Source: Apostichopus japonicus (Eukaryota > Echinodermata > Holothuroidea > Aspidochirotida > Stichopodidae). From it: a stretch of DNA of 64,000 nt. This document shows positions 34,996-62,033 of this stretch, one piece after another (position 1 is the first letter of the stretch; every line of letters begins with the position of its first letter). Under the pieces are notes generated by a model. The model made no database searches, was not told the DNA's origin, and worked only from the letters and a program-made list of their open reading frames with translations. The position numbers and the translations under genes are program-made. The stretch is taken from the NCBI RefSeq assembly GCF_037975245.1, contig NC_092571.1:27935564-27999563 (forward strand), read 5' to 3'.

Positions 34996-36519
34996 ATGGG
35001 AAACGTCAGTACCTTGCGAAGATTCCTTGCGCTTTTGCTACTCACGGAGTTAGTATTGAACACTCTTTGTAGAGTTAACTTGGAGTTTGACAGCGGCTAT
35101 GAATATAGTGTGATAGAAGGTGATGACGTTGTGCTGGTTTGTCAAAGTCAAGGAAATGATTCTGTCACAATATTTCGAGGTTCCATGCGAGAATACATGA
35201 TTATAAATAATAGCGTACTGGAGGGGAATCCAAAGCGATACGATTTTCAGTTCAATGCAACAGAACTTGGTTTTAATCATTGGTTAACTATTAGGAACAT
35301 TTCCACAGAAGACGGAGATGTGTATTTGTGTGTACGAAAAGAACACTCGTTTGAACCGGCATCTCTGACCGTGAACGTGATATTTGCATCATCAAAACCC
35401 ATTTGCTCATCCCCGGCGGAACTAGTGTTTTTTGAAGATGAAATAAACAAGAGAATTGTTTATCAATGCATAAATAAAAACAACGATGATCCTTCTACAC
35501 AGTTATCCATTAAAGGTTTTCCGAAGAATATGCCTGTGAAGACTGATTCAGTGCGACAAGGTGATATATTGAACAAATATGTGTCCTTCATACCTTCACA
35601 CGAGATTAATCAAACCGTCATTACTTGCCATCTTCGTCAAAATGTAACTTCGTCTAATAAAGTTACATCTTTTCACGATTTCTGCACATTTCCACCCCTT
35701 TTGTTTTTGAAAGAGCTAGTAATGTCTATAACACCACCAAGTTATAGCATTACTAAACCAGGGAAGGTTGCGTTCACCTGTCTCAGTAATGCCGGAAGAA
35801 ATGACAAATGGAAAACAACGTGGAAAATAACTTCCGAAATTCCGATTTTCGTGAAGTATTCGATTTCCTCTAGCCGTTTAACGTTTGAAGTAAATGAACC
35901 TTTAGATATAACTACTACGGTTGCAATCCTTTTTGAATGCAGTGGAGAGGTGAGACATCACATAGCAAAGACAGTTGCTTCTCTCTCCATCACGCACAAT
36001 TTCACATCCGGATCAATGTCGGAACCATCAAACCTAACGTTTGTTTTATTTGTTACAGCATTTCCTTCGGTGGTTATTCTTGTTTTGATCATACTCTATT
36101 ACATTTGCTATAAACTAAGGTCAAGAAACCAACATGTAGACCATATTGACAAAGGACCAACAACACCCATGCCAGAAAATGACCTCCTACAGAAAAGAGA
36201 TAAAAACCTTGAGGTTCAAGGACAGCCGTTTGATACTTTTTCAAAACACATGGATAACATTCAGATTCAGACTCTTAAAAGTGCTTCGAGACGTGATAAC
36301 ATGGAAGCAATTGGAGGTGAAACAGTAACCACCTTTGACGAATACCCTACTATTCAGTTATCGAGTACCAATGACAGCTACACAACGACAGTAAGACCTG
36401 TAAGTGTAACGATGGAAACCAGTCTAATTGGAAAGGATCCACAAATGCACGTTCCTACAGTACATGTACCCAAAGTCTCGGACTCGGCGACAGAAATCAA
36501 ATATGCTGAGATAGTGTGA
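34996..36519 (+). CDS. Ig-domain type I receptor with C-terminal ITIM, gene 1
   Basis: 507 residues in one coding exon, starting MGNVSTLRRF. Residues 8-25 are a signal peptide. The first Ig (V-like) domain runs about 30-128: C49 pairs with C112 in the classic D-G-D-V-Y-L-C. A second region (C137, C158, C211, C230) and a third (C262-C315) look like further, atypical Ig folds. There are many N-glycosylation sites. A membrane helix spans about 347-373. The tail of about 134 residues has DSYTTTV and ends EIKYAEIV, whose I-K-Y503-A-E-I is a consensus ITIM. Such motifs recruit SH2 phosphatases in vertebrate inhibitory receptors; that role is inferred here. It is diverged from the cluster downstream but shares its layout, the Y-T-T-T-V tail motif and the terminal ITIM. 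Confidence 0.85.
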   Translation: MGNVSTLRRFLALLLLTELVLNTLCRVNLEFDSGYEYSVIEGDDVVLVCQSQGNDSVTIFRGSMREYMIINNSVLEGNPKRYDFQFNATELGFNHWLTIRNISTEDGDVYLCVRKEHSFEPASLTVNVIFASSKPICSSPAELVFFEDEINKRIVYQCINKNNDDPSTQLSIKGFPKNMPVKTDSVRQGDILNKYVSFIPSHEINQTVITCHLRQNVTSSNKVTSFHDFCTFPPLLFLKELVMSITPPSYSITKPGKVAFTCLSNAGRNDKWKTTWKITSEIPIFVKYSISSSRLTFEVNEPLDITTTVAILFECSGEVRHHIAKTVASLSITHNFTSGSMSEPSNLTFVLFVTAFPSVVILVLIILYYICYKLRSRNQHVDHIDKGPTTPMPENDLLQKRDKNLEVQGQPFDTFSKHMDNIQIQTLKSASRRDNMEAIGGETVTTFDEYPTIQLSSTNDSYTTTVRPVSVTMETSLIGKDPQMHVPTVHVPKVSDSATEIKYAEIV

Positions 36520-38160
36520 GGATTGGTCGCCATGCTTGATAGGTTATATTGTTCGAGCTTGGGTGGCGCGCAAGTAAACCATAATGTAAATATAACTTTT
36601 TTTTATCAATCTTAAATGTATACTAACCATTAAATATCGGACAGATGCTGACTATAAGTTTAATCAACGTTCGAAAGGATTAAAGGGGAGAATGGAATCA
36701 CTTACCTAATTACGAAATGAAGTCCCACAGACAACTCAGAACGTACCGGAATATGAATCGAATATTTGTTCAACTTCCTTAATGTGGGGTGAAGGAAGCG
36801 TTTCAAGATTTTACTTGGTCTCCCATGTTGAGTTTCAGATCGGATATTCTGAGATTTATAATTTAAAATAAAAATCGATTCCTAATAAGATATAATTAAT
36901 CTTGAACTATTTCTTTATATATGCGAACAGTTATGATTCTGTAAGAGATTTTTTTTTGTATGTTTAACACGAACACGAAAAATATTTAATTTTTTTTTCT
37001 CGGAAATATTTTAAGAAACACGTGAAGTGGATCACTGCACTCGTGCGTAAAAAGCCAACTCGATGTCGAATTCAACCACCATCCTTCTTGAAGAGTGGTG
37101 AATGCACAACCTACTTTACAAACATTGCAATTTCATAATTCAAATTTGGTTCACCGATAGGTGGGGGAGATAGGAGGTGTTCCTTGGTTCCCTTATTTCA
37201 CCGTGATGTACACTTGCCAGTGGGTTTTTGCACTTCATAAAGTTTCAATTTGCCCCACTTGCCCCTCTCCACCTTGGAATTTCTGTTGCCGCCACAACTG
37301 TTAATCAGGGAATTGTTTGAATTACTCCATGCCTTTACATCTGTACATAGACCGTCACAGCGAGAAGTGACATTAAATATATTTAATAATTAATGATTTG
37401 CAAAATGACATTAATGATAGCAAAAATATAATATTCACCTCGTCAGACAGAATCTTAGCACTCTGAACAGGGAACTACAATTTCTGTATATCAAATGCAG
37501 ACTATACTTGGACTTAGACTTTTTTGGTAAACCTTTTACCCAAAGTTTGGTTGACTAGATATGCGTATCCAATGTTGGGCAAAACAATTCACCCAACTCA
37601 AAAGTGTTTCTTCGACTGATTAAAGGTGATTACTATATTTTATTGTGGACATTTGCATATTTCCATACCCATTTGTAGTCGAATTGGTTAACGCAAATAT
37701 TAAGCTTTGATCAAATAGGTGTTCTCTCAGTGTTCACATTGCAAAAGCTGGTTTTTAGCGTACCTTTAGAACCCTGGTGAATTCAATATCAAAGCTTTCG
37801 ACTGAATCATAAAACTAGTTTACTAAAACTAAATTGCTGTAAACTGCTGTATTTTAAAAAATTCGACTAATTTATCACTCAATATTCCGAAATTTATTCC
37901 TCAAAGTTTACACCAAAAAATAATAACTAATAACAAACTATAGCAAACTATAACAAAAAATAGAAAATTTACTGTATCGTTAGGTACACATACAAAGGAT
38001 ACAGCTAATTGAGAATATAACGACTCCAGCTCTATGATCCAACTTAACACTGTAAATATTTTGAAAAGTAACATTTTGTGAAGAAACACGTGCCGTGTAA
38101 AAGGATGTGTGCCCTTTGCATGATGTTCAGTGCATCACATCCAAATGATAATCATATTTT
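36520..38160. other. 3' region of gene 1 and spacer
   Basis: A candidate polyadenylation signal AATAAA lies at about 36867. Otherwise AT-rich. Words near 37160-37310 (ggaggtgttcc, ttggaatttctg) suggest a decayed transposon. No gene is seen. Confidence 0.5.
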
Positions 38161-38169
38161 GACGTTTTT

Positions 38170-39788
38170 CCAAACTGTCGTATCCATGAGGGAGTACTGG
38201 AGTGACTTTATTGTTTGAATAAATGGTTTGTACCTGTTTACCCAAATGTTGGGATGATATCTTCAACTTTATAAATTACCTACCGATATTCATATGTTAA
38301 ACATATTAACCGGTTAATTCAATAAATTGGACAGCTAATCGCTTATTGAAAAAAACAAAAAAACATTAAAGGGTGTTTTGCGACCTCTATTCTTGTTTTG
38401 TGCGGATGTCCAAGTTATTGTTGGCAACCGCTACAGAACGTACAAGTTTTCTTTTGTAGTTTCTGTTTGTCAGTGATACTTTTAATATTCATTGAACTGT
38501 GCTTATTGTGATCCTACTGTATATTTCAATCTGTAGTCTTTACTTACGTGCTGCTTCATAAGACTTGCCAATATAGTGTCTACTGTACTCAGTATTAGTT
38601 TGTAAAATATTTCTCTCCAATATCAACTTTGATACTTGAAAATTGATCTATACTGAATATGTTATCTATTTTAAATGGTGATAGTTGTGATTGGTATACA
38701 AAAGGCAATACGATACCCCATAGACCGCTGGTTAAGATAAGTTCTTGTTAAACATCCCATGTTTTTACTTTCAGTCTTACTGATTACCTTTTCACTTGGG
38801 GTGGGGGGGGGGGTTACACCCGTGGTAGTGGTCCGACTCTTTCTCGGCTAAATGCAAAATAACCCCCGAATGAACAATTTACCCCCGAATGATAATGGAC
38901 TTGTCTTCTATCAGTCACGGGCACGATATCAGCTAATAGTGTCTGCAGTGCATATAATTGATCAATTTGTGCATATTCTTGAGTGGCATTAACCATTTGT
39001 TATATTGTATATCGCGAACATTGCTTCCCTTTCATGTTGTTAACATTCCAGGCATGTTTGGATAACGTTGAACAAATGCCTTTAATTTATGATCAGCCGT
39101 GTTAGCTAAACTCCAACGAATTTCGGAGAACTATCGGAGACACCATATGAACGCATCTAAGGTAATATTTTCATATACGTTATGTCTCACGCACTCACAC
39201 TGCTATACAGACTTGACCAAAAGCTCGAGTATGAAGAGGTCGCTAAAAATATTTTGCCTGACGATGTTTCACCAAGTTCCAACTGTTTAGGGTGTTAAGA
39301 GAACGTCGCGTATGTTCAGTGTCATTACATTAAACATAGATGATTTGCCAGTAATTAGGTTTAACGAAATATTTATTGGTTTTATTGGGCATGGCTAAGA
39401 ATCCCACTTATACTTACGATACATCAATTACATTTACATTGCTATTGACATTGAGTGCCAACTGGTAATACATTATTCATGCTGTTCAACCAATTCAGTA
39501 CCGTTTCCAGTGTTACGAGAAAATACTTGTTGGTGTTTTTAGTAGGACGTATCGACTTGTCGCTGTTATGGGCATGTCACTCGTGTAGACCGAAGTCGCT
39601 GGGTGGCAAGTCTAATGGATGAGGGAGTTAACGGGGCGTAGGATCCGCCTTAAATTTATGTGGCATAATTAACAACCCTACGTTCAGCATTTTGATGTCT
39701 ATCCATGCAAAATGTACACATGACTCGTCTCAATTAACAATGATGTTAATATACCTTTTTATGTTTTTTTTTTCTCTTTAATCTCCAG
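38170..39788 (+). repeat. Receptor 5' module, unit 1
   Basis: Repeated with changes in unit 2 (45785-46080, 48399-49269, then 51370-52937) and unit 3 (58290-60541). It carries the candidate non-coding exon at 39052 and, before each gene, a conserved stretch including catgtcactcgtgtagac and gaagtcgctgggtggc (near 39570). Copies of the latter stretch also precede both truncated receptor copies (about 44706 and 57713). Confidence 0.8.
39052..39161 (+). other. Candidate 5' untranslated exon of receptor gene 2
   Basis: 110 nt between acceptor ttaacattccag| and donor catctaag|gtaata. The boundaries and the interior are kept at 51607-51714 and 52052-52159. The first ATG in it meets a stop after two codons, so it is non-coding. 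It would splice to the acceptor ttaatctccag at 39788, 57 nt before the start codon. Confidence 0.5.
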
Positions 39789-39845
39789 TTTGTGGTAGTA
39801 CCTGTCACCTACACGAAAACCAGAAACAAATTAACAGGTGTTAAG

Positions 39846-41255
39846 ATGAATACAACTTCAGTATTTCTGGTACTGGTGTTTTCCGATTTTTTTGTATTTA
39901 TGAAAGCAATTGTTGTAAATAGAACGTTACAGTTTGAAGATCCTATGAAGATATACACAGTTTTGCAAGGTGATAGAGTTGGTCTTTTATGTAGCCCAAA
40001 TGATGTTGATGATATAAAAATTTTTACCACAGGATCACTGGTTGCCTCAGGGAGACTGGAGGAACCGGTATCAGATGAATTTGACTTTGAATGCAATGAA
40101 ACAAGTTGTACACTAAGCATTAAACAAGTAGAGAAGAAACATGCTGACATTTATACGTGCTATTTGCCCCAGACGTCTTTGAAGATAGAAGTATTGAGCA
40201 GTCCTTCACAGGATTATCCTGTGTGTAATTCAAGCTACACCAATCATACATTCTTCCTCGATTCGTTCCAAGAACCTTTTTGTTTTAGTTGTCTGTCTGA
40301 AGAAGGATTTCCAGCAGTTAACATGTCATTATCTGTCAATCATGGAGATGGTGAGATAAACAACATAAGTGACGAAAATTTAACGATTTATGAAACAAAT
40401 GAGACTGTTTTAATTTCTTATTCATCATATCTGGATTCATCGTTTAATAACAGTACCTTTGTATGTACTGTCACACAACAGTTACCTGCTCCCTATCACA
40501 GCTACAATAAATCTTGTTCTTTCGGACCATTGATGCTACCGGTATTCTCGGTATCGATTCATCCATCTTACTATACAGTGACCACAAAGAATACAGAAAA
40601 CATTATTCTCATGTGTACCAGTAATGTGAGTGGAGTTGTATTAGAGTGGACCAATATTCCCCTCGACGATTGGAATTATAATATCACTCGGATCAATGAT
40701 TCATCACAGCTGAAGATTTTAGATTATGGATCAAGTATCGATCTACCAATAACTATGCAGTGTAGTGGTTCGTATGGAGGAATAACTGTCTCCCAATACG
40801 CCACAATCGATATCGCGAGTACAGACGAGCATATAATCCTCTCTACATTAATCACAGCGGTATTGATAGTGTTCGTCATCTTGGTCATTATAGCTATAGT
40901 TCTTGAACTAATCGGAGTACTTATAAACAGAAAAACAAAAAAACAGCAGCTTCCTGCAATGTCATTAACGGATACAGGACTGACACGCTCTAACTTATCT
41001 TCTCAGGGTAACACTCAGTCACCGCTTCCTGTCACTTACACGACTACAGTAAGTCCTGAAAGTATGAATATGCAACATCGACGAATGAATGAAGACTTAT
41101 TGTACGCTCGATCGATAACTTTACAACAAGAAACAGAGAAAGAAACAGAACAATATTTTGATATCAATGAAGTCGCCTCATTTACATACGACAAAGATGA
41201 TTATCTCGATCCAAGTCAGCATGAAACAGCGGTTTTGTACCATGACATTAGTTAA
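39846..41255 (+). CDS. Ig-domain type I receptor with C-terminal ITIM, gene 2
   Basis: 469 residues, one coding exon. The frame extends 18 codons further up, but only from GTG and after a splice acceptor at 39788, so ATG 39846 is the start. Signal peptide about 1-20. First Ig domain about 24-118 with C49, C105 and D-I-Y-T-C. The second region has C127, C146, C149, C207 and C224; the third is C257-W268-C306. About a dozen N-glycosylation sites. Membrane helix about 333-360, then an N-R-K-T-K-K stop-transfer. The tail has Y398 (VTYTTTV), Y420 (LLYARSI), Y437, Y448, Y453 and the final VLYHDIS, a consensus ITIM at Y465. Binding partners are unknown. From about residue 120 on it is nearly identical to gene 3, but its first domain resembles the truncated copies at 45119 and 58046. 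Confidence 0.88.
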   Translation: MNTTSVFLVLVFSDFFVFMKAIVVNRTLQFEDPMKIYTVLQGDRVGLLCSPNDVDDIKIFTTGSLVASGRLEEPVSDEFDFECNETSCTLSIKQVEKKHADIYTCYLPQTSLKIEVLSSPSQDYPVCNSSYTNHTFFLDSFQEPFCFSCLSEEGFPAVNMSLSVNHGDGEINNISDENLTIYETNETVLISYSSYLDSSFNNSTFVCTVTQQLPAPYHSYNKSCSFGPLMLPVFSVSIHPSYYTVTTKNTENIILMCTSNVSGVVLEWTNIPLDDWNYNITRINDSSQLKILDYGSSIDLPITMQCSGSYGGITVSQYATIDIASTDEHIILSTLITAVLIVFVILVIIAIVLELIGVLINRKTKKQQLPAMSLTDTGLTRSNLSSQGNTQSPLPVTYTTTVSPESMNMQHRRMNEDLLYARSITLQQETEKETEQYFDINEVASFTYDKDDYLDPSQHETAVLYHDIS

Positions 41256-44200
41256 AGGAGCGTGCGCAAGGGCGGGGTAGGAATGGGGTGATGGGAGCAA
41301 TTTATTATATATACCTACGTTATAATATAAACATGCATGAAAGGGTATCATTTCCAAGCCACCACAATCTTGTTGGGCCAATGTGGGTTGATGTAGAGAG
41401 CGTGGAGTCAGCTGGACTTGAGCTAACATTGAAGTTACTTGTTGGGCACCGTGTGTTTTTGCATTAGATGAGTAAATTACATGTTTCTTGGGATGTGGTT
41501 ACATTAATGTGTAAGTTCTGGGACGAGTAATTGCGTTCGATTCGGGGTTTGACATGTGGACATGGACAATTTATTGAGGGTAATGGCTGCCCACTTGTGT
41601 TGTATGTGGGTAGAGTATTTGATGCACAATTAATTAAGTATACTATCAGGACCCCATTTGGCTTTCATGGAGGCTACGAATGGGTAAATTAGCGTTGTGT
41701 TACCATGATATGACTGATTGAATCCCATTTGGGTTTTTCATGGGTTATACAAGAGCAACTTAATGTGGGTTAACCAAGTTATACACAGTTGTGTTCCATG
41801 TTGGTTAATATGTACTTGACATGCCGGGGTAATTACTGTGGGTAACCATGAAATGAATGTATTAGGCTACAAATGGACACATTAGTTTGGGGTCACTCTG
41901 ACATGACTAATTGAGTTCCAATTGGGAATCTACATGGGTTAATTTGTGTGGATAAACCAATGGATGTCCAGTCATGTCTACCATATGGGTACAAAGTGGG
42001 CTGTACATGGGAAATTAATGTGAGTATACCATGTAATATAAACCTGGTTTTTGGAGGTTAGAAACTGTCACATTCGTGTGGGGTAATGCTGGACTGACTG
42101 ACTGGGTCACATTTTGGGTTATACATGTGTTATGCACGTGTTGTGGGTTAACGAAGGGAAAACATTCTCGGGTGAATATCATGATTAGGCACAATTTATA
42201 TATGTCATCGTGGTACCATTCATTTAGTTATTATATAATCCTAGACAGCACGATAAATTCGTATCCGTAATGTTTCGATAGGCTAACCTTACTTTCTGTT
42301 ACTGCTAAGTTAACGTATTAAACTATACTAGGCCTAATGTTCAATATCGTCAGTGTGGGACATCCCTGGATCGAGGTGTACTTGCAAAACACCTGGGACG
42401 GGATACTACATGTACATCGAGCTATATATTTGGGTACAGTCTTCAGAATTTGTCAATACCTATATGTTTATGTCCTAATTTAGGCTAACTTTAGCTATGA
42501 ATGAGAGGATAGGCCTACTTAGCAATCACATCCATGGGGGCCCCATGCAGGTTATATGTGAAAATCGTAAGGAGGGCTAACTATGGATTACATACTAGCG
42601 ACGCGTATGGTAGTTGTATTAAGTATGTGTGGAGGGAAATACGTGGGCTTACATCACCGCTTTAGCTTAGACCTTTGACCAATTAATGTGGGTTGCAAGT
42701 AGGCTTCAAATGGGTACATTGATGTGAGTTAACCTTAGGATGACTGACTGGTTCTCGCCTGTGGTTTTACATGACTTTGGAACGTGCCAATTTTGTGTGG
42801 GTAAATCAAGGATTGCCCAGTTGTGTTTCAAGTGGGTATAATATGAGCTGCACAGGAAAAATTACTATGATTATAACATGTATATAATATCAGCTGGGCC
42901 ATTCGTTCGTTATGGAGGCTACAAAGTGCTCCAAAGGGGTAATATTATTCACTGCTTTACCTTTAATATGATTTGTTTTTAAATTACCACACCTAGATAT
43001 TGCCAAATTTCTTGCACAGAAAGAACAGAGAACCTACAAATAGTTCAGCTATACACTACAATAGTGGAGTGCATATGTATTTGCTTATCATATCCAGGAA
43101 GTTAACGTGCAACTCCTGTCAATGGCATTTACACAACTGGTCATATACGTATTCAGTTATATTGCTGCTAAAGCATTCATTGCAGTTTTAAAATGCTGAC
43201 GGAAGTATAGCTTTCGATTTCGACGCCGGAGGCTCGAAATCCAAACAGTCAATGCTGACGTGTGTGTATTTAAGGGCTTGAGTATATTTGTGTTTTTTGA
43301 CAGCTAGCTCGCAAACAAGAAATAGTGGCAATTCATACCTACATAATTTATGCGATTTGATGAGCAGATATGCTCAATTTCTTTAATGAAACCCTTATAT
43401 GAATATTAATGTTTGGTCAAGGATTAATGTAAAGTTTGTAATTAATATTCTTCGTACTTGATATGATGGTGTAAGTATGCGATATGTACATTTTATTATT
43501 ATTAAATTTAATCTCATTAGTAGTCATGATTGGCCGAAGTTTGAAATTTAATTGCTAAGATTGCTTGTTAACTCGAAATAAAAAAAAAGGACGTGTTGGA
43601 TCAATGTCATACTTACATGTTAGATGAACCGATGTGGTTAGATGTGCTCTATTACCTTCATAACATGATTGTTAATGAATAGGTTGCCTTTACGTAACTT
43701 CACAACCTTGTCTGATTCACTTTACTTAGTGTGGTTGTGTTAACAGATGATAGGTATAATTTCGTATGATTATTGTGTATCATTTTCTTAACACGCATGG
43801 TTTGGAAGAGTAAAAACTTGGTCGCTGAAAAAAATTCTAGGCATGACCTCAAAGAAAACAAAGTTGATTAACATCATTCTGGACAATGAGATGCCATGAT
43901 GAGTAGATGTGCCGAATTGATCGTGGTTTGTCATATTGTAATGTGCTCGTGGCTTAATTGGGATGAACTCCTTAAACTGTCAGCATTTTTGCAATGCTCA
44001 TGTCCACTCAACTAGAAGATCATTATCTTCACAACATGATATATAGGCAGCTTGATATTTAGTGCTGTTGATACGGCTGTTTTCAGTCAATGATAAACTG
44101 TTAATAAACAACTAAACATTCAATTATAGACACCATTATGAGATTTGAACACATTGAGCCCATTATGCGTCACGCAAACAAAACCTTTACAGGGGTTGCC

Positions 44201-44330
44201 CAATTTGGTCTATAATAGTCTAGACCAGATGGATTCTATGTGAGTTGCCTAGTTCACACCTGTATCAGCTCTAAAAAGAACCCAAAAATACCCTGCTTGG
44301 GACCATCAATATCCCTAGATTTCCCTTTAG
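41256..44330 (+). repeat. Receptor 3' flank module, unit 1
   Basis: It matches 54411-56455 and 62034-63500, starting with ggagcgtgcg.aagggcgggg right after each stop. About 41430-42900 is a decayed series of phrases such as ttaatgtgggtta, acatgggtta and catgtggacatggg, which looks like an old tandem repeat. No gene is seen. Confidence 0.8.
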
Positions 44331-45118: not shown

Positions 45119-45434
45119 ATGACTTCAGCTCCAGTATTTCAGGTTCTGGTGCTTTTCGCAATAGTTGTATTTATGGAAGCAACTGTTGTAAATAGAACGA
45201 TACAGTTTGAAGATACTTTGAAAATATATGCAGTTTTGCAAAGCGACGGATTTAGTCTTTCGTGTAGCCCAAATAATATCGATAATTTACTCATGTTTAC
45301 CTAAGGATCACAACTGGTTACCAGATGAATTTGACTTTTAATGAAACAAGTTACAATAAGCATTAAACAAGTAGAAAAGAAACATGCTGACATTTATACA
45401 TGCTTTTTTTCCAAGAAGATCAAGATTGGTGGGT
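45119..45434 (+). pseudogene. Truncated receptor copy (type of gene 2)
   Basis: It begins MTSAPVFQVLVLF, with signal peptide and the first part of the Ig domain (NRTIQFEDTLKIYAVLQ), as in gene 2. A TAA at 45302 follows MFT where gene 2 has TTG. Further homology in shifted frames runs to the D-I-Y-T-C region, then stops near 45434. No second domain, membrane helix or tail remains. The splice acceptor upstream is still good, so a transcript is possible but would encode only about 60 residues. Confidence 0.85.
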
Positions 45435-46224: not shown

Positions 46225-46510
46225 ACCGGACAAATACCCCCAGACAAATACCCCCCGGACGATAACCCACCAGACAATAACCCCTCGGACGATTACCACC
46301 CGGACAGATACCCCCCGGACAAATACCATCCCGGACAACTACCCCCCAGGACAACTACCACCCGGACAGATACCCACCGGACAATTACCCCCGAGGACAT
46401 AAACCCCCCCCCCCCCGGACAACTACCCACCCGGACAACTACCTCCTCGGACAAATACCCCCCAGACAGTTACCCCCCCCCCGGATAAATACCCCCGGAC
46501 GAATATGCCC
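46225..46510. repeat. C-rich minisatellite, left arm
   Basis: About 17 units of roughly 16 bp with consensus GGACAAATACCCCCC and variants (GGACAACTACCCCCC). It is the inverse of 48000-48335. Confidence 0.9.
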
Positions 46511-46939
46511 CTTGACATATGCCAGCGACGGATACGCCCGTCTTTTTACGAGGTTAGTTTCCCACGGGCCTCAACATATACCCTGGTCTCCGGGCAACTC
46601 CGAGAGCATACTTACAATTGGGTCAGGGTGCCGGTAAAACTGGCACCAATAGGGTCGTCGTGTGCGTGGCCCTTTTAACCTCCTCCCGACTTTAAAAAAG
46701 ATTCGAGTGTTTCATATATAAGCCCCCAAAACTCCTGGATAGGGCTTGACAATGAGCCGATGCCCGGGGGGGGGTGGGTGGGTTTGGGCATTGCTCACTG
46801 ATGGTAGTTACGAATAATTTACTATTTGTTATAGTGACACTATTCTGTATTATTAATCTCCGAACAATTCCGGCTTATTGCGACTTAGCATTTTCAAGTT
46901 TCCTTCTGAGTAATTTTAATTGATGATTTGTTATGTTAT

Positions 46940-47200
46940 GTTAGTTTTTGTATAGCGCTTTATATGACACAGCTATCTCAAAGCATTTTGAATCACTGGT
47001 CATCAGGCTGGCTGCCGAGAATTCAGCGAACACACCTTATTTATCTCACAGGTACACATTTATACACGTGGATGGAGAGGGGCAGTCGAGATAAAAGTGC
47101 CTTGCCCAAGGACACAACATAAGGGTGAGAGCTTGAATCGAAACCACAGTCCTGTGATCATATATAAACCAAAAGCATTAGCCACTCTTTTGAACACCGC
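46940..47200 (-). mobile_element. SINE-like repeat inside the insertion
   Basis: The plus strand has tatagcgctttatatgaca, then aaagtgccttgcccaaggac, then tgagagcttgaatcgaaacc. Read on the minus strand, GGTTTCGATTCAAGC is B-box-like and GTGGCTAATGC is A-box-like. The order is that of a widespread tRNA-related SINE of marine animals. The copy is diverged. Confidence 0.65.
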
Positions 47201-47999
47201 TGGTCAGCCTATTCAACATTGTGACTCAACAGAATTAATCAGGCAAGCTCACCTGTTGTTGAAATACCTTCCCTACCGTACCCTAGTAGATTTTTTTGTT
47301 TATGGCAACAACTGGCCAATCAAGAGATAGTCTGGAAAAAAACACATGACTCAATTTTGTGGATACATACCATGTGCAGCCACTTTAGTAGAAGGACTTC
47401 ACCCTGGAAGCAAGAATTTTCTGCTAGACACATGCAACTGTATATTACAACTCATCTGCACTACTTTCTGTTTTATCCGCTGCAAAAACTACCAAGAGAA
47501 ATTCTCATATAGATTTAATCAATTGATAATGTAAGAATAGTTTATAAATAATTGTTACTCTGGTCGTAAGAATAGCCACGGCCATTTTTGTTTTGACGCG
47601 TTTCGTCGGGGTCCCTCGGACGCGGTCCCTTCATATACACGCGTTTTGACACCTATCAAAGAAAATTCATCTTCAATACATCTTTTTCTTTAAACCTTGG
47701 TGATTTTGTGGATTAGCAGTTTTTATCAGCTACGTTATTTTGCTTTTAAATTTGGTTATATAGAAGACGTGGAACAGCCGGTCAATTTCTAATTACAAGA
47801 TGCATATTTTGATTGTCATATAATCTGATATATCAGAATAATAATCTGATATACCAGATTAAGACAATTTTCTTTCATGGCCCTAATGGGCTTTCGTACT
47901 ACGGAGTTCACCAGCTAAAGGTCCGCTTGGTTAACGGGTTCGTGGGGGGGGGGGGGTGGCGTATTCTGGTTTAGTTCAGGTGCTAACCTGAGTGAGGTA

Positions 48000-48335
48000 T
48001 CTGTGCCGGTGTATTTGTGCGGGTAGAGCTTTCCCGGAGGTAATTGCTGGGGGTGGGGTTAATTGTCCTCGGGGGTATTTTTCCTCGTGGGTGTATGTCC
48101 GGGGTAGTTGTACCGGGGGTAGTTGTCTGGAGGGTACTTATCCTCGGGGGTATTTGTCCTCGGGGGTGTATGTCCGGGGGTATTTGTCCGGGGGGTAGTT
48201 GTCCTCGGAGGTATTCGTCCTCGGGGGTTTTTGTCCGGGGGGTGATTGTCCAGGGGGTACTTGTCTCGGGGGTATGAGTCCGGGGGTATATGTCCGGGGG
48301 GTATTTGTCCGGGGGGTATTTGTCCGGCAACCGAA
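48000..48335. repeat. G-rich minisatellite, right arm
   Basis: About 20 units of roughly 15-16 bp, such as GTCCGGGGGGTATTT and GTCCTCGGGGGTA, the inverse of the left arm at 46225. G-rich enough for G-quadruplexes. Confidence 0.9.
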
Positions 48336-50348: not shown

Positions 50349-50356
50349 TTGCATCT

Positions 50357-52159: not shown

Positions 52160-52988
52160 GTAACATTTTCATATACGTTATGTCTCACGAAATCACACTT
52201 CTATACAGATTTGATCAATAGCTCGAGTATCAAGGGGTCGCAAAATATATTTTGCCTGCCGATGTTTAAAAATCGAAATGTTTGCAGTGTTAAGAGAACG
52301 TTGCGTACGTTCAGTGTCCATACATTAAACATAGATGACATCCCAGTTAATAAGGATAACGAAATATGTATTGTTTTTTGTTGCCAACTTTTCAGTGAGG
52401 TTTGGTCTATAAATGCTCAGTCGCACGTTGAAATATATCACGCAGCTATTGCAATGTCATGGCTAAAAATCCCACTTACTTACATCAGTGACATTAACAT
52501 TGACATTGGGTGCCAACCGGTAATACATTATTCCTGCCGTGCAACCAATTCAGTACCGTTTTCAGTGTTACGAGAAAATACTTTGTTGTTGATGTTACTA
52601 TGACATCTCCACTCGTCGTTGTTATGAGCATAACTTCATGTCACTCGTGTAGACAGAAGTCGCTGGGTGGCGAGTGTAAGGGGAGAGGAAGTTGGCTGGG
52701 CTTAGAATCCCCCCTCCATCATTTGACACATAGTCCATGCAAAGTTAGTAAACAAAATAATTCCATACAGTTAAACGGGGTAAATAGCCCCTCCCCTCCC
52801 TCAAAGATATGTGTTTAGACCAGGCACTCTCTTAGCAATATATTATCGATAATGAATCTTCGTAAGTTGAAGCCATAGAGCATTCGTTTCAATTGACAAT
52901 AACTTCATCCCTATTTTTTTCCTCTTTTAATCTTCAGTCTTTCTTCGTACATCTCCTCCACAGGAAACAAATAATAGCAGGCGTTAAG

Positions 52989-54410
52989 ATGACTTCAGTT
53001 TCAGTATTGCGGATCCTGGTGCTTGTCATTTACACAAATGTTTCATTTCTTGAAGCAAGTGCCGCATATAGGGAAATACAGTTTGAAAATATTACGAAAA
53101 CATATTCAGTTTTGGAAGGCGCTGAGATTAGGTTTATATGTAACCCAATGGATATTAAGAAAATGTTAATTACTACCACATTATCGACGTTGGTTAACTC
53201 GGGGAATTTGGAGGAAGCATTATCAAAAGAATTTGACTTTGAATGCAATGAAACAAGTTGTGCACTAACCATTAAACAAATAGAGAGGAAACATGGGGAC
53301 GAATATGATTGCAGTTATCCTAAAAAGTCTTTGACCATAAAAGTACTTAGCAGTCCATCACATGATTATCCTATGTGTAATTCAAGCTACACCTCTAATA
53401 CATTCTTCCTCGATTCGTTTCAAGAACCATTCCATTTCAGTTGCCTGTCTGCAGAAGGATTTCCAGCAGTTAACATTTCATTATCTGTCAATCATGGAGA
53501 TGATGAGATAAACAACATAAGTGACGAAAATTTAACGATTTATGAAACAAATGAGACTGTTTTACTTTCTTATTCATCATATCTGGATTCAACATTTAAT
53601 AACAGTACCTTTGTATGTACTGTCACACAACAGTTACCTGCTCCCTATCACAGCTACAATAAATCTTGTTCCTTCGGACCATTGATGCTGCTACCGGTAT
53701 TCTCGGTATCGATTCATCCATCTCACTATACAGTCACCACAAAGAGTACAGAAAACATTACTCTCATGTGTACCAGTAATGTGAGTGGAGTTGAATTAGA
53801 GTGGACCAATATTCCTCTCAACGATTTGAATTATAATATCACTCGGATCAATGATTCATCACAGCTGAAGATTTTCGATTATGGATCAAGTATCGATCTA
53901 CCAATAATTATTCAGTGTAGTGGTTCGTATGGAGGAAGAACTGTCTCCCAATACGCCACAATCGGTTCCGCGAGTACAGACGAGCATATACATCTCCCTA
54001 CATTAATAATAGCGGCATTGATAGTGTTCGTCATCTTGGTCATCATCGCCATAGTTCTTGTACTAATCGGAGTACTAAAAACCAGAAAAACAAAAAAACA
54101 GCAGCTTCCTGCGATGTCATTAACGGATACAGGACAGACACGCTCTCACTTATCTTCTCAGGGTAACACTCAGTCACCGCTTCCTGGCACTTACACGACT
54201 ACAGTAAGTCCTGAAAGTATGAATATGCAACATCGCCGAATGAAAGAAGACTTATTGTACGCTCGATCGATAACTTTAAATCAACAAAATGAGAAAGAAA
54301 CAGAACAATATTTTGATATCAATGAAGTTGCTTCATTTACATACGACAAGGAAGATTATCTCGTTCCGAATCAGCTTGAAACAGCGGTTTTGTACCATGA
54401 TATTAGTTAG
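52989..54410 (+). CDS. Ig-domain type I receptor with C-terminal ITIM, gene 3
   Basis: 473 residues, one coding exon from ATG 52989, 52 nt after an acceptor. Signal peptide about 1-24 (LVLVIYTNVSFLEASA). The first Ig domain has C51 and C108 within D-E-Y-D-C. The second and third regions, membrane helix (about 336-364) and tail follow gene 2 nearly residue for residue, including GTYTTTV, LLYARSI and the final ITIM VLYHDIS (Y469). In the first 125 residues only about half the positions agree with gene 2. The broken copy at 60593 is its close relative. No premature stop or frameshift, so I expect it to be expressed. The ligand is unknown. Confidence 0.88.
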   Translation: MTSVSVLRILVLVIYTNVSFLEASAAYREIQFENITKTYSVLEGAEIRFICNPMDIKKMLITTTLSTLVNSGNLEEALSKEFDFECNETSCALTIKQIERKHGDEYDCSYPKKSLTIKVLSSPSHDYPMCNSSYTSNTFFLDSFQEPFHFSCLSAEGFPAVNISLSVNHGDDEINNISDENLTIYETNETVLLSYSSYLDSTFNNSTFVCTVTQQLPAPYHSYNKSCSFGPLMLLPVFSVSIHPSHYTVTTKSTENITLMCTSNVSGVELEWTNIPLNDLNYNITRINDSSQLKIFDYGSSIDLPIIIQCSGSYGGRTVSQYATIGSASTDEHIHLPTLIIAALIVFVILVIIAIVLVLIGVLKTRKTKKQQLPAMSLTDTGQTRSHLSSQGNTQSPLPGTYTTTVSPESMNMQHRRMKEDLLYARSITLNQQNEKETEQYFDINEVASFTYDKEDYLVPNQLETAVLYHDIS

Positions 54411-56455
54411 TTTAAGGAGCGTGCGTAAGGGCGGGGTAGGAATGGGGTGATGGGACGTTTGTGCATTCAGTGGAAAATAGAGCCATTTAATATATAGACC
54501 TATGTTATAGTATAAACATGCATCCAATGGCATCATTTCCCAGCCACCACAAACTTGTTGGCCCTATGTGGGTTTTATGTTGCGAATGTGGTGTTAATTG
54601 GGTTTGAGCTAACATTGTACTACTTTGTAAAGCATCATGTTTTTTTGCATTAAATATGACCTGGTTACATGTGGGCTGTAAATGGTTAAATTAATGTGGG
54701 TTAATTCTGGGACGAGTAATTGCCTTCGATGTGAGGTTTGACATGTGGACATGGGCAACTTATTGTAGGTAAACCAAGGGATTCCCTGTTGGGTTGCAAT
54801 TAATGAGAGTTTATCAATCGGGGCCCATATGGCTTTGCAATTATGTAGGCTGTAGGCCTTGGCCTCATTCATATTAGCGTAGCTTAGATACGCAAAATTT
54901 AGGATAACGAGTGGGAGGAAAGGCCTACATAGCAATCACATCCACAGAGGCCCCATGCAGGTTGAAAAACGTGGGATTAAAAGTAGGGAGGGCTAACCAT
55001 GGATTATATACTAGCGACGACGCGTATGGTAGTTGTATTAAATATGTGTGGACAGAACTACGTGAGCTAACATCAACGCTTTAGCCCAGACCTTGTCCAA
55101 TTAATGTGGGTTGCATATTAGCTTCAAATAGGTACATTAAACTGGATTAAACTTAGGATGATTGACTGGTTCTCGCGAATGGTTTTACATGACTTTGGAA
55201 TGTGCCAATTTTGTGCGGTTAAATGAAGGATTGCTCCGTTGTGTTGATGTGGGTAAATTATGAGCTTCAAAAGGACAATTAATATGATTATAACATGATT
55301 GTAATATGTCTCAGCTGGGCCATATGTTTGTTATGGAGGCTAAAAAGTGTACAATAGAGGTTATACTAAATTTAAACTGCTTCACCTTTTATGTGATTTG
55401 TGTAAAGTACTTCACCTAGCTATTGTCAAATTTCTTGCACAGAGAGAACAGAGAACCTACCCATTGTTCAGCTATATACACTACAATATGAAAGTGCATA
55501 TCTATTGCTTATCATATCCAGGAAGTTAACGTGCAACTTCTGTCAATGGGATTTACACAACTTATCATATACATACTCAGTTATATTGATGATAAAGCAT
55601 CCATTGTAGTTTAAAGTGCTGGAGTATAGTTTTCGGTTTCGACGCCGGGGGCTCGAGAATGTATACAGTCAATGATGACGTGTGTGTATTTAAATGCATG
55701 TGTATATCTGTGTTAGTGCGGACAGCAAGCTCGCAAAGAAGAAAAAATGTCATACTTACATGTTAAATATACCAATGTGGGTATATGTACTCTATTCCCT
55801 TCATATCATGATTATTAAAAAATAGCTCAACGTAACTTCACAACCTTGTCTGATTTACTTTACTTAGTGTTGTTGTGTTAATAGGTGATAGGTATAGTTT
55901 CATATGATTATTGGGTATCGTTTTCTTAATACGCATGGTTTGGAAGATCTTAAAACTTGGTCGCAGATAACAAATATTGTAGACATTACCTCAAAGAAAA
56001 CAAAATTGATTAACATCATTCTGGACAGTTAGATGCCATGAAGAGAATATGTGCCGAATTGGTCGTGGTTTGTTATATCATGAAATGTAATGAACTCGTC
56101 GCTTAATTGGAATGAACTCCTTACAATGTCAGCATTTTTGCGAAGCTCATGTCCACTCAACTAGAAGATTTTTTCTTCACAAAATTGTATCTAATCAGCT
56201 TGGTATTTAGTGCTATTGTTACGGCTGTTTTCAGTCAAGGATAAACTGTTAATAAACAACTAAGCATTCAATTAAAGACACCATTTGAACACTTTGGGCC
56301 CATTATGCGTCAGGCAAACAAAACTTTAAAAGGGGGGCCCAATTTGGTCCATAAAAGTCTTGACCAGGTGGATTCTATGTGAGTTGCCTAATTCATACCT
56401 GTATAAGCTCTACAAAGAACCAAAAAATATCCTGCTTGGGACCATCAATATCCCA
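54411..56455 (+). repeat. Receptor 3' flank module, unit 2
   Basis: It follows unit 1 from 41256 on, with about 300 bp missing near 55735 relative to units 1 and 3. No gene is seen. Confidence 0.8.
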
Positions 56456-57305
56456 AATGGACTGCACATATGAAATTTGTGTAAGAACCTAATGTTTCCC
56501 TCTTTGATTTCCTGAATAAAGACCAATGTAAGTCCCAACATCCCATAAACTTGAACTCGTTTGGGGCCAACACAGGCCAGGGAGATAAACTGTATAGAAC
56601 TTATCGAGTTTTCCGATGTGGGATGTCTAATTTGTAAGTCCCACAATAAACCCACTAATATTTTGTGTGGAAGCTAAATAGGACACATCTATATCCCAAT
56701 AATATCCAAACTTTAAACCATTTCAGTACGCCCACATGGGTCCGAAATGGTTCTGACGGACAAAGAGGTGAAGGTACCACAAGGGGTTGCCCATATTGAC
56801 CAATATATGTTGCCAGACCAAAGGGGCCTATCAATATCCTGCACCTGAGCCAACAACTTAGTGCGATAACCCATGTGATACCCATTTAGGACTCATGTCT
56901 ACCCCACACAAGTTTGCTTAAATGGGACCCACTGTTATTCTACTTGGGATTGCCTTCTTGAGGCCAACAGGTGGACAAAATTTCATAGAACAAATTGGCC
57001 CACGTTGATCCCACTATGTTGCCCTTATACAAGCCGTATCAGGCCACTATAGGTGTGACGGCTGGGTTCAAGTCTGCGTTAATGATATTTTGTTTGGGGG
57101 AGTCCCCAAACTTCAAGAGACCCCTGGTATATACATTGATTGTTATGAACATCCCGAATGCAACTGCCAACTTCATATTTGTAATGAACATTGGCGTCTG
57201 AATTCACGCCATTTGTTGCAAATGTCCAAACCATTGCTTCGTACATTTTTTATACATATGGCATTCCGTAGATTGAATTAAGGATCGATCTAATATATAC
57301 GTATA
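56456..57305. other. Unit 2 extra segment of about 850 bp
   Basis: Unit 1 passes directly from gggaccatcaatatccc to tagatttcc (44325), while unit 2 has about 850 bp between these words. The segment is rich in tgggac and cccacatggg phrases, like an inverted relative of the decayed repeat in the 3' flanks. I see no terminal repeats, so it may be a deletion in unit 1. Confidence 0.6.
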
Positions 57306-58045
57306 TATTCCTAGATTTCTCCCTGAAAATATTCCCTCGAAAGTTGACTCAGAATCGTTCGCATAATGTATTTCTATCAATTAGATCATGGTATCCGAAA
57401 ATGAAGTTATTTGGATACAATCATGGTTGGATGGTCGACCAACCGTGTTTGGTTTTGATTACAAATTTACTGTGAGATTTGGTCTATACATTTTTAGGGA
57501 AACGTTGAGATATTCCAAGACGATATTGGAAGGTTATGACTAAGAATCCCATTTCTACTAACAGCAATGACATAGTCGTTATCGCACGATCGAGAGTATA
57601 GGGTTGCCAATTGGCAATATATTCTTCCTGCTATGCAAACAATTCAGAAACCTTTCCAGTGTTGAGAGAAGATATTGTTTTGGTGATGGTATGAACTAGC
57701 CGGGCATAAATTCATGTCACTCATGTTGACTGAAGTCACTTGGTGGCTAGTCTAATGGATCAGGAAGTTAGCGAGGGCTTACAATCCCCCTCCTTAAAAC
57801 ATTTGACATAATTAACCACCTTACGTACAACATTTTGATATCTATCGGCATACAAAATATACAATTCACTTTCATAATTTTGAACAGACCAATTAGCCCG
57901 TTCAAAGGTTTGTGTTTAGGTCTATCACTCTCTTAGTGATATATTACTTAAAACGAAGTTATGTAAAATGAAACTAGTGTGTTTGAGACTTAACACGTAG
58001 CACCTCTCACCTACATGAATAGCAGAAAAAATAGCAGGTGTTAAA
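57306..58045 (+). repeat. Short 5' module before the second truncated receptor copy
   Basis: It parallels 44331-45118, but about 90 bp containing the splice acceptor are missing just before 57998 (acttaacacgtagcacctctc). Confidence 0.75.
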
Positions 58046-58270
58046 ATGACTTCAGCTTCAGTATTTCGGGTTCTAGTGCTTTTCGCAAATGTAATATTTA
58101 TGGAAGCAACTGTTGTAAATAGAACGATACAGTTTGAAGATATTATGAAAATATATGCAGTTTTTCAAGTCGACGGATTTAATCTTTCATATAGCCCAAA
58201 TGATATTGCTAATATATACCTATGTTTACCTAAGGAGCATCACTGGCTACCTCAGGGAGACTCTCGGAAT
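58046..58270 (+). pseudogene. Truncated receptor copy, second instance
   Basis: It starts MTSASVFRVLVLF, with VVNRTIQFEDIMKIYAVFQ as in gene 2. The first Ig cysteine is changed (L-S-Y-S in place of L-L-C-S). Homology ends near 58270 within the first domain, and the frame runs on into the next unit's 5' module to a stop at 58291. It lacks its splice acceptor. Clearly non-functional as a receptor. Confidence 0.88.
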
Positions 58271-60592
58271 CGTTACCAAATGTATGTATGATATATGCAA
58301 CTCAATGGATTGCCTAATTATTCCTATTATAAACAAGTACACCGGCTATAATTTCATTGGACAGTTAACCGCCTATTGAAAAACATCAACATGTGATTTG
58401 CGCCCTCTTTATTTGTTTTCCGCGGACGTCCATGGAAACAGTCTACTTGTTTTCAACCGCTACAAACCGTGCACATTTTCTTCTGTATTTTCTGTTTGTC
58501 ATTATACTGTTTGTATATTCGGTGCACTAGGGTTATTGTGATTCTACTGTAAACTTCAATATGAAGTCGTTACTTATCTGCTACGGCATAAGACTTGTCA
58601 ATATAGTGTCTACTGTACCCAGTATTAGTTTGTAAAAGACTTTCCCCACAATATCAAGTTTAATACTTGAAATTGATCTAGCTTAGAGATGTTATCTATT
58701 TTAAATGGTGATGGATGTGATTAGTATAAGAAGAAAATTAGATCCCTCAATGACTGCTGTTTACGACAAGTTCTTGTTAAACATCTAATGTACTTAATTT
58801 CATTCCGAGTGCTTACCCTTTTACTTTCATTGAAATGAAATCCAACCAAAGAAAAGTTTAATTGCGCCATCATTTTTTTTCTCATTTTCTTTTTTGCATT
58901 AAATGTGTCCGTTGATAAGGGGTATATTGCATCTACATTTATAAGTCTTCAAAATAATTTTATAGGGGATCTCCTAAACCGTTATATGCCGTTAATTTAT
59001 CATCGTCGGTGTTAGCGAAATTCCTAAGAATTACGAAGTACTATCGGATACACCATTATACCGCAGCTAACGTTACATTTTCAGGTATATATGTAAGCAT
59101 CACACATGACTGTCCTCCTCAGTGGAGTTCGATTTACATTCGTCTTTTATGTATAATTTTTTCCTGCATAGGCGTGTAGGCTATCACTGTGTTAAGCCTC
59201 AGATGATTTACCAGAAAACTGTAGTACTAATCGAATTTAATCAATTCTATATATTCGGTTATATGTGTCTTGTTGTGGAGATATAAATGTAGTACAATAT
59301 TCGTATGACTATGGCATAAACCTATTTCTTTTCTATACTCAAATGGAATGATTTGATTCAGGATTGGTTGTTTGAATAAACGCTTCGGTGACTATGTATA
59401 CTATTCTAGAGAGAAAAAGCATTAACAATTTCGTCAAACGTTGATGCAGTCCACCTAGCTTTTGGAATGTTATGTACCACACAATCATAATTCTATAAAG
59501 ATTTGAGCAAAAGAACGACTAGGAAGGGGTTGCTACATATATTCTACCTGTTTAACCGAATTCGAACTGTTTGCAGTGTTTAGAGAACGTTGTGTTTAAA
59601 GTAGTCCCATAAGTTCAACTTCATTACATTTAACATATGATAACATCCCAGTACACTACTGTTTAGGTATAAAGAAATGTTTTTTCCTTCAATTTCTTAC
59701 CCGACCGAATGCTATCCCCCGCCCGAATGACGATCAGAGGTGGAGAAATGGGGATAAGCACCCAACAGTGTATGTAGGCATGGATTGTCTCTGCGAAGGG
59801 TTGCTAATAATTTATGAAGTTCGATCCATTACATGTATATTTTTCAAAAAGTCTCACTGGACATATTTGCTTCAAAAGTTGCGAAAAGTTCAGTTTCAAG
59901 TTCAACCGTTTTTGGTTTTTATTGCAAAGTTTTCAGTGAGGCTTGGTCTATAAAATGTCCAGTCGCACGTTTAGTAGTTCACCGAGCCATTGGAATTTCA
60001 TGGGTAAGAACCACACTACTACTTACATCATTGACATTGGGTGCCAACTGGTTATACATTATTAATTCCTGCCGTTCAGGCTTCAGCCAAATTGAGTACC
60101 GTTTTGCAGTGTTACTAGAAAATACTTTGTTGGTAATGTTACTATCAAACCGACTTGTCGTTGTTATGGGCATAAATTCATGTCACTCGTGTAGACAGAA
60201 GTCGCTTGATGGCGAGCATAAGGGGAGAGGAAGTTGGCTGGGTTCAGAACCACCCCCCCCCCCACCACACACACATCCTTTTTCATCATTTGCCATACTA
60301 ACCCCTTACTTTCAACATTTGTATGTCTGTCCATGTAAAGTATACAAAATAATTTTATACAGTTGAACGGGGTAATTAGCATCATTCAAAGAAATGTGTT
60401 TAGACCAGTCACTCTTTCAGCAATCTATTACCGATAATGAATCATCGTAAGATGAAACCAGTGTGTTTAGGGCATGAAAAAAACCGTTTTAATTGACATT
60501 GTGCCCAATTATTTTTTCCATGTTTCTGATTAAATCCTCAGTCATTGATCGTACATCTCATCGACTTGAAACACATAATAGCAGGCGTTAAG
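58271..60592 (+). repeat. Receptor 5' module, unit 3
   Basis: It matches the module of units 1 and 2 without their transposons, and keeps empty sites for three unit 2 insertions (near 58495, 58596, 58927). The candidate exon (about 58990-59080) has lost the AAG|GTAA donor (it reads gctaacgttac), so splicing should fail here. The acceptor aaatcctcag at 60541 is weaker. Confidence 0.75.
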
Positions 60593-62033
60593 ATGACTTC
60601 AGTTTCACTTTTGCGGATTCTGGTGCTTGTCATTTACACCAACGTTTTATTTCTTGAAGCAAGTGCCGCATATAGGACATTACAGTTTGCAGATACTAAA
60701 CAAAAATATTCAGTATTGGATCGTGATACGATTAGGTTTTTATGTAACCCACTGGATATTGAGAAAATGTTAATGTTTACCACAGAATCAACCCTGGTTT
60801 CTTTAGGGATATCGAATGTAGCATTACCAGATGAATATGACTTTGAATGCAATGAAACAAGTTGTGCACTAACCATTAAACAAATAGAGAGGAAAATGAG
60901 GACGAATATGAATGCCGGTTTCCTAAACGATCTTTGATAATACAAGTACTTAGCAGTCCATCACATGATTATCCTGTGTGTAATTCAAGCTACACCTCTA
61001 CTACATTCTTCCTCGATTCGTTTCAAGAGCCGTTCTAGTTTAGTTGTCTGTGTGAAGAAGCAAATCCACCAGTTAACATTTCATTATCTGCCAATCATGG
61101 ATATGGTGAGATAAACAACAAAACTGACAAACATTTAACGATTAGTAAAACAAATAAGACTGTATCACTTTTTTATTCATCCTGGATTCATCCTGGATTC
61201 ATCTGGATTCATCGTTTAATAACAGAACCTTTGTCTGTACTGTCACACAACAGCTACCTGCTCCCTATCACAGCTACAATAAATCTTGTTCCTTCGGACC
61301 ATTGATACTACCGGTATTCTCGGTATCGATTCATACATCTCACTATACAGTCACCACAAACAGTACAGAAAAAAATACTCTCATGTGTACCAGTAATGTG
61401 AGTGGAGTTGTATTAGAGTGGTATAATATTTCCCTCGACAATTGGGATTATAATATTACTCGGATCAATGATTCATTAGAGCTAAAGATTTTCGATTATG
61501 GATCAAGTATCGATCCACCAATAACTATTTGGTGTCATGGTTCGTATGGAGGAAGAACTGTCTCCCGATACGCCACAATCGGTTCCGCGAGTACAGACGA
61601 GCATGAACATCTCCCTACATCAATAATAGCGGCATTGATAGTGTTCGTCATTTTGGTCATCATCGCCATAGTTCTTGTACTAATCGGAGTACGTAAAAAC
61701 AGGGAAAGAAAAACAAAAATACAGCAGCTTCCTGCGATGCCATTAACGGATACAGGACAGACACGCTCTCACTTATCTTCTCAGGGTAACACTCAGTCTC
61801 CGCTTCCTGGCACTTACACGACTACAGTAAGTCCTGAAAGTATGAATATGCAACATCGCCGAATGAAAGAAGACTTATTGTACGCTCGATCGATAACTTT
61901 AAATCAACAAATTGAGTAAGAAACAAAACAATATTTTGATATCAATGAAGTTGCTTCATTTACATACGACAAGGAAGATTATCTCGTTCCGAATCAGCTT
62001 GAAACAGCGGTTTTGTACCATGATATTAGTTAG
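60593..62033 (+). pseudogene. Broken receptor copy (type of gene 3)
   Basis: It aligns with gene 3 over its whole length. Lesions in order: a one-base loss near 60895 that shifts the frame after KQIER; a TAG at 61036 in place of the H codon in EPFHFSC; a small expansion of attcatcctgg near 61175-61213; and a TAA at 61917 just after LNQQIE. The last would remove the final 38 residues including the ITIM, although the ITIM DNA is still present up to the original stop at 62031. The third Ig region, membrane helix and part of the tail stay open (61302-61919). A recently dead gene. Confidence 0.9.

Follow-up and report, generated by a model that had tools for sequence, protein, structure and literature searches.

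The stretch of DNA analysed here (hereafter the window) comprises 64,000 nucleotides of the echinoderm Apostichopus japonicus (C11:27935564-27999563 of assembly GCF_037975245.1; all positions below are counted within it, and all the receptor features lie on its forward strand). It carries a row of six related genes for membrane receptors with immunoglobulin (Ig)-like domains, which belong to a family whose recognition ends and tails have different histories. Three of the six are intact, namely g1 (34996..36519, 507 amino acids), g2 (39846..41255, 469 amino acids, with the listed open reading frame (ORF) beginning upstream at 39792) and g3 (52989..54410, 473 amino acids). Each of these has an uninterrupted frame with a hydrophobic start, three Ig-like domains (Ig1 to Ig3), a single, strongly hydrophobic helix and a tail, 108-128 amino acids long (128 in g1), and in each the signal peptide and single membrane helix are clear by hydropathy. 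The remaining three are broken: p4 (about 45119..45416) and p5 (about 58046..58285) keep little beyond the signal peptide and part of Ig1 and contain stops, and p6 (60593..62033), a duplicate of g3, is whole in outline and carries both frameshifts and stops. A first-pass annotation, made from the letters of the window, had described exactly such a row of three intact and three broken receptor genes with single coding exons, and both parts of this description agree with what we find, the intact frames being continuous from signal peptide to stop.

For g2 and g3, a single coding exon preceded by an intron in the 5' untranslated region (5'-UTR) is likely, because acceptor-like sites lie directly 5' of both genes. 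In particular, a polypyrimidine tract followed by CAG at 39757..39788 reads as the 3' splice site that probably ends a 5'-UTR intron in g2, and a second such tract at 52906..52937 as its counterpart upstream of g3. No clear acceptor-like site was seen near the start of g1, and no donor was seen for the putative 5'-UTR introns. A 217-base tandem duplication lies directly upstream of g1 (34156-34583), and minisatellite arrays with units of ~16 bp in inverted orientation occupy part of the interval between p4 and g3 (46226-48327).

The copies are related to very different degrees. While g2 and g3 are 78% identical, g1 and g2 share 26% identity across 299 residues (E 5e-13), a likeness that is clear by shuffling for Ig1 and Ig2 (0/2000 each) and not clear for Ig3 (181/2000). 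Comparison of the window with itself by blastn reveals that the stretch from g2 to p4 is repeated as that from g3 to p5, and that g3 is repeated once more as p6. Between p6 and g3, identity amounts to 93-97% in the 3' flank and to 66-87% just 5' of the gene; in Ig1 it is 68-77% in two 75-base windows of the first half and 85-99% in the next two.

Size and immunoglobulin identity of the family

Protein searches of the assembly (671,581,487 bases in 35 contigs), using g3, g1 and two further members (one from C11 at 27 Mb, one from C4) as queries, returned 85, 50, 92 and 82 matches, respectively. Merged by place, these correspond to about 93 related loci on 8 contigs (C11 61, C4 12, C19 9, C23 4, C13 3, C15 2, C18 1 and C21 1), a count that is approximate because the searches score the best candidates only; what is more, 8 of the merged loci, all longer than 2.2 kb, may comprise two genes or pieces apiece, and a handful of weak matches (on C21 and C15, for example) may lie outside the family. 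Sixty loci fall within C11 25.90-28.34 Mb and thus near one end of this contig, which is 28.43 Mb long. The expanded invertebrate cluster that had been surmised from the window is thus supported, and the annotation missed its size, as well as the swapping of modules described below, because these lie partly outside the window.

We examined 68 family loci (L010-L077, including g1-g3 and p6), of which L064 and L068 are duplicates, leaving 66 distinct ones. An ectodomain, a helix and a tail of at least 45 amino acids stand in one frame in 38 of these, and 28 have no full frame; in L075 and L076, no frame with the family signature searched for was present. Uninterrupted frames of at least 440 amino acids occur at 11 further loci beyond the 66. 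Across the intact members, the coding region appears to lie in single ORFs, as in the intronless kirrelL. Members outside the window were chosen for having a helix; among them, L046, L055 and L057 show only a weak hydrophobic stretch at the N terminus. A description of the family was not found in the titles and abstract openings of the published literature searched, in keeping with the earlier suggestion that it is undescribed, and the word 'immunoglobulin' is absent from the main texts of three A. japonicus genome papers, though genes reported with those genomes, such as the expanded 'Fgfr' set, could include members. A profile search of viral contigs returned only L001, whose ORFs look by eye like phage packaging and head genes, and we regard it as a chance match.

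Judged by profile matching, the family belongs to the immunoglobulin superfamily, as had been proposed. Namely, among the 37 aligned members (the 38 intact ones minus L037, whose start codon was poorly picked), Pfam families matched at E ≤0.01 include Ig_3 in 21, 'ig' in 14 and C2-set_2 in 11. A profile of the same 37 members matched Ig domains in the PDB, mainly over Ig1; among the best 60 of the 579 matches, DIP-alpha comes first (E 1.6e-8), followed by contactin, NCAM, JAM and CD4, and Kirrel is not among these 60. For the window proteins taken by themselves, every Ig match is below Pfam's curated cut-offs, and a PDB search with g2 alone gave no match. Twelve positions are invariant in 37/37 members (in g2 numbering, G42, P125, C127, C149, C207, Q211, C224, F226, C257, N260, W268 and C306), and the four cysteines in Ig2 and the C-W-C of Ig3 are kept throughout.

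Apparent exchange of recognition ends and tails

Within g2, three modules can be told apart by comparison with its relatives. The recognition (N) module, consisting of the signal peptide and Ig1 (39846..40290, boundary approximate), is like that of L014 and unlike that of g3; the central module of Ig2, Ig3 and the membrane helix (40290..40990) is similar in g2, g3 and L012; and the tail module (40990..41255) is common to g2 and g3, L012 and L014 having another tail. In other words, g2 and g3, together with L012 and L014, the next two copies beyond the window, make up a complete two-by-two set of two N modules and two tails. The N modules pair g3 with L012 (79% identity, synonymous divergence (dS) 0.09) and g2 with L014 (80%, dS 0.09), the crosses being at 49-52% (dS 0.30-0.38), whereas the tails pair the opposite way, with 89% identity between g2 and g3, 83% between L012 and L014, and only 22-30% for the crosses (dS 1.1-1.4). 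By sliding identity, the switch points lie near g2 positions 40290 and 40990, the tail switch extending into the 3' flank. The frame of L014 is without the end of Ig3 and the helix.

The same pattern recurs on a larger scale in a second cluster (C11 26.8-27.6 Mb, 36 merged loci), in which we compared 12 intact genes. Here, three N classes (E, T and A) and three tail classes (66, 83 and D) occur in 8 of the 9 possible combinations, and a uniform Ig2 (mean dS 0.14) sits between divergent ends (mean dS 0.65 and 0.72). The contrast is most easily seen in single pairs: L023 and L034 have an N-module dS of 0.05 and a tail dS of 0.97, and for L023 and L027 the corresponding values are 0.83 and 0.06. 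By the approximately unbiased (AU) test, the N-module data reject each of the tail groups 66, 83 and D as a clade (p 1.9e-52, 0.0011 and 2.7e-7), and the tail data do the same to the N groups E, T and A (p 4.7e-81, 3.3e-6 and 8.2e-61); tail group 83 is unsupported as a clade in its own tree, yet not rejected there (p 0.39). In a third cluster, L043 (C19) combines an N module and Ig2 of the L041 type with an Ig3 and tail of the L046 type.

N modules and tails thus have different histories, which indicates that the copies have swapped their ends through crossing-over or gene conversion. A single tree cannot accommodate both modules; barring assembly error, the natural cause would be recombination or gene conversion. 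The outcome, similar ectodomains joined to different tails, is a trait of paired receptors.

In all three D-tail loci examined (L028, L031 and L032, at C11 27.455, 26.984 and 27.289 Mb), a second membrane-helix-and-tail cassette lies ~0.8-1.2 kb downstream, open across the sequence examined and with an acceptor-like CAG in front. This cassette is possibly an alternative last exon or a relic; of the three, L031 and L032 alone were flagged when scanned for acceptors, and no convincing donor in a matching phase was seen.

Tail motifs and other features of the window

The first reading of the window had placed an immunoreceptor tyrosine-based inhibitory motif (ITIM) at the C terminus of each intact tail, and a YTTTV motif in all of them, and both are indeed there. 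The strict ITIM is IKYAEI in g1 (36496..36513) and VLYHDI in g2 (41232..41249) and g3 (54387..54404), with its tyrosine fifth from the end; YTTTV lies at 36379..36393 in g1 (computed from the protein position), 41037..41051 in g2 and 54192..54206 in g3, and shuffling the tails yields a 5-mer in common 1.3% of the time. A further motif, YDxxxYLxP, is represented by YDKDDYLDP in g2 (41187..41213) and YDKEDYLVP in g3 (54342..54368), both positions again computed from the protein.

It does not follow that these are classical inhibitory receptors, that is, a family of ITIM receptors in which the C-terminal motif recruits SHP-type phosphatases, the reading to which the annotation had pointed. While some strict ITIM turns up by chance in 15% (g1) or 21% (g2) of shuffled tails, a C-terminal one at a common offset in both tails arises in only 0.03% of shuffles, and across the 38 full-length tails a C-terminal strict ITIM is found in 3 against 0.5 expected from shuffled tails, the last two figures speaking for this account. 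Yet these three tails are precisely those of g1-g3, each holds one strict ITIM rather than two, and family-wide any strict ITIM occurs in 13/38 tails against 9.7 expected, which is about what chance provides. By this test, strict ITIMs do not define the family; the inhibitory label finds no support as a family trait, and we consider the classical inhibitory account unlikely.

Other tyrosine motifs are far more widespread. In particular, a C-terminal YxxPhi is present in 18/38 tails (1.8 expected), YDxxxYLxP, a motif defined after the tails were seen and run as the slightly wider pattern Y[DS]...Y[LM].P, in 17/38 (0.01 expected), and Y[ST]TT[IV] in 6/38 (0.02 expected). In some members motifs are amplified in tandem: L050 and L051 (C11 25.9 Mb) contain 4 and 5 strict Y[ST]TT[IV] copies within YSTTI-type repeats, and L016 (C11 18.4 Mb) has ten YxxP motifs, mostly YLVP, in repeats. 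One could argue that the family consists of endocytic or phagocytic receptors, whose YxxPhi and NPxY motifs serve as sorting signals and not as phosphotyrosine switches, and the excess of C-terminal YxxPhi, along with NPxY in 4/38 tails, would agree with this. We find it improbable, given that YDxxxYLxP and the amplified Y[ST]TT[IV] and YLVP repeats are not known as sorting motifs.

As for possible partners, YLxP-type sites suit the SH2 domains of PLC-gamma, Crk or RasGAP, and YxN suits that of Grb2. The genome yields 82 SH2 matches, among them several copies that belong to a dispersed repeat; the four examined, L078-L081 (C14, C4, C20 and C19), have near-identical flanks around a partial SH2 domain in a frame of 133-137 amino acids, and look like an SH2 exon captured by that repeat. 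Histidine or lysine near the edge of the 19-residue helix window occurs in 2/38 members (L015 and L070), the windows having been picked by hydropathy, which shuns charges. Three short-tailed forms on C4 (L062, L065 and L070) have a lysine at or just past the helix end and 0, 3 and 1 tail tyrosines, respectively; their ectodomains are like those of tyrosine-tailed neighbours, and they could be partner or decoy forms.

Elsewhere in the window, a search for RNA families and tRNA genes found none. An ORF at 14572-15456 encodes a nucleotide-diphospho-sugar transferase domain (PF03407, E 2.2e-21), a repetitive stretch at 5279-6119 has halves that look similar on opposite strands when the list of ORFs is read by eye, and the region 18449-30523 has exon-like ORFs at both ends that look by eye like a monocarboxylate-type transporter, the later of the two having no convincing family match.

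A probable paired-receptor-type family and its parallels

Anatomy, the size and expansion of the family, the enrichment of tail motifs and the separate histories of N modules and tails are matters of observation. On this basis, we think it probable, if still far from assured, that the genes form a germline family of the paired-receptor type, made up of type I membrane receptors with one coding exon each and diversified by recombination. Three modules would share the exon: a recognition end of signal peptide and Ig1, which falls into several divergent classes, a central block of Ig2, Ig3 and the membrane helix, which varies less, and a tail from one of several tyrosine-motif classes. We infer that Ig1 binds a changing ligand, be it a pathogen, self or allo-determinant, whereupon Src-type kinases would phosphorylate the tail, whose class would decide which SH2 proteins dock there. 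SHP-type phosphatases would be drawn to the C-terminal YxxI of tails with a full ITIM, such as those of the window genes, and other adaptors to the YLxP and YxN motifs; an inhibitory output is thus likely only for tails that retain the full ITIM. Through the exchange of modules, one binding specificity would be tied to more than one output, in the manner of vertebrate paired receptors.

Several points weigh against this reading. To begin with, selection on Ig1 is suggested only weakly by the ratio of nonsynonymous to synonymous divergence (dN/dS). Namely, within N classes the ratio is 1.00 (0.76-1.35) for Ig1 and 0.57 (0.40-0.81) for Ig2, with intervals that just overlap; over all 66 pairs with classes mixed, it is 0.55 for the N module, 0.52 for Ig2, 0.55 for Ig3 and 0.65 for the membrane helix and tail, and thus no higher at the recognition end; and in dN alone, Ig3 is on a par with Ig1. 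What is more, the motif counts are not independent events, because the members are related, YDxxxYLxP was named after the data had been seen, and the groups in the AU tests were named after the identity table had been seen. YxxPhi is absent from 3/38 tails, and a DAP12-coupled activating form is not evident, apart from the lysines seen in L062, L065 and L070. Finally, AlphaFold models of window sequences alone are poor (mean predicted local distance difference test score 43 and 46); Foldseek matched the first weakly to nectin-like ectodomains and the second to mixed folds, and neither model was relied on because both are poor.

The other ratios can be set beside these. Within classes, dN/dS is 0.56 (0.40-0.77) for the membrane helix and tail; for Ig3 it comes to 0.57 when members are grouped by N class and to 0.76 (0.58-1.08) when they are grouped by tail class. 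Between g2 and g3 it is 0.92 in Ig1, 0.42 in Ig2, 2.06 in Ig3 (few changes) and 0.47 in the tail, and between g3 and p6 it is 1.18 in Ig1, p6 being broken. The pattern between g3 and p6 fits local diversification or the import of another Ig1, relaxed constraint being possible as well.

Two non-immune or non-functional accounts remain to be weighed. One is that the family serves cell adhesion or development, like kirrelL or IgTM, and has no immune role. In its favour, the echinoderm kirrelL is an intronless Ig membrane protein (PMC8903837), IgTM is another such membrane protein, from sea urchins (PMC6768484), with no claim as to its introns, and nectin-like proteins, JAM and NCAM are among the matches of the weak model and of the profile; but some 93 loci, many of them broken and with exchanged ends, are unlike a conserved developmental gene, and we rate this account as improbable as the endocytic one. 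A decaying expansion under relaxed constraint, drift and ectopic recombination, with few functional genes, is very doubtful, for although 28/66 distinct loci without a full frame and an Ig1 ratio near 1 within classes would suit it, the ratios of Ig2 and of the membrane helix and tail (0.57 and 0.56) have intervals below 1, and the invariant cysteines are kept in all 37 aligned intact members.

Returning to the paired-receptor-type reading, the layout appears to resemble most that of Botryllus FcoR, and the family would work in the manner of paired receptors. FcoR comprises 53 loci in one locus region, encoding type I Ig membrane proteins of 520-610 amino acids with a V-type first domain, C2 domains and tails with an ITIM, a hemITAM or a bare YxxI/L/V (PMC12065747). 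The likeness, taken at the level of layout, extends to a large, clustered family of type I Ig membrane proteins with tyrosine-motif tails. FcoR differs in having a sushi domain and motif-swapping alternative splicing (hence several exons), in being paired with fester genes and in belonging to a tunicate (PMC12065747). The sushi family is not among the 16 Pfam families listed for our 37 members at E 0.01; a fester-like partner gene was not sought. Apparently coded in one exon, and with no sushi domain found, the present family is set apart from FcoR by description.

Hydractinia Alr, with 41 members in one gene complex, V-set and I-set domains and motifs of the ITIM type or the ITAM (immunoreceptor tyrosine-based activation motif) type, is likewise, compared by description only, an invertebrate Ig receptor family with tyrosine-based tail motifs; it differs in being cnidarian and in its known allorecognition role (PMC11999971, PMC12065747). 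The nearest published parallel found for shuffled binding and signalling parts is the vertebrate KIR cluster, in which genes lie head-to-tail and recombination generates fusion genes in which binding domains are newly combined with signalling domains (PMC7516082). KIR genes are multi-exon, however, have ITIM tails alongside DAP12-coupled short forms, and their breakpoints map to intragenic transposable elements (PMC7516082), whereas here the switches fall inside what appears to be one coding exon. Teleost NITRs are multigene Ig receptors too (44 in medaka, in three clusters), with divergent V domains and, in many cases, ITIMs, but they have one or two Ig domains and activating forms with a positively charged membrane residue (PMC2442602), which are not clearly seen here. 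Among single genes, kirrelL and IgTM are similar as echinoderm Ig membrane proteins, kirrelL being intronless as well (PMC8903837, PMC6768484); kirrelL differs in being treated as a single skeletogenic cell-fusion gene, and the passages covered describe no tail exchange (PMC8903837). Oyster CgIgIT2 is also an invertebrate Ig receptor with a tyrosine-based tail, differing in its five Ig domains and in an ITAM described as activating ERK signalling (PMC11999971).

A further possibility, which we put forward tentatively, is that these genes constitute a germline combinatorial recognition system. In it, the block from Ig2 to the helix would act as a hinge for meiotic recombination that joins many recognition ends to several phosphotyrosine tails, individuals would differ in their receptor repertoires for immune or self/non-self recognition, and the tails would signal through a tyrosine cassette of YxxI, YDxxxYLxP and a C-terminal YxxI/V rather than through a classical ITIM or ITAM. 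The analysis also corrects the ITIM label, the more widespread features of the tails being other tyrosine motifs. An echinoderm family this large, with ends exchanged within one exon, would add another case beside Botryllus, Hydractinia and the vertebrates, and would open to testing, in A. japonicus, a species raised in aquaculture, the question whether germline recombination that couples specificity to different outputs is a general design.

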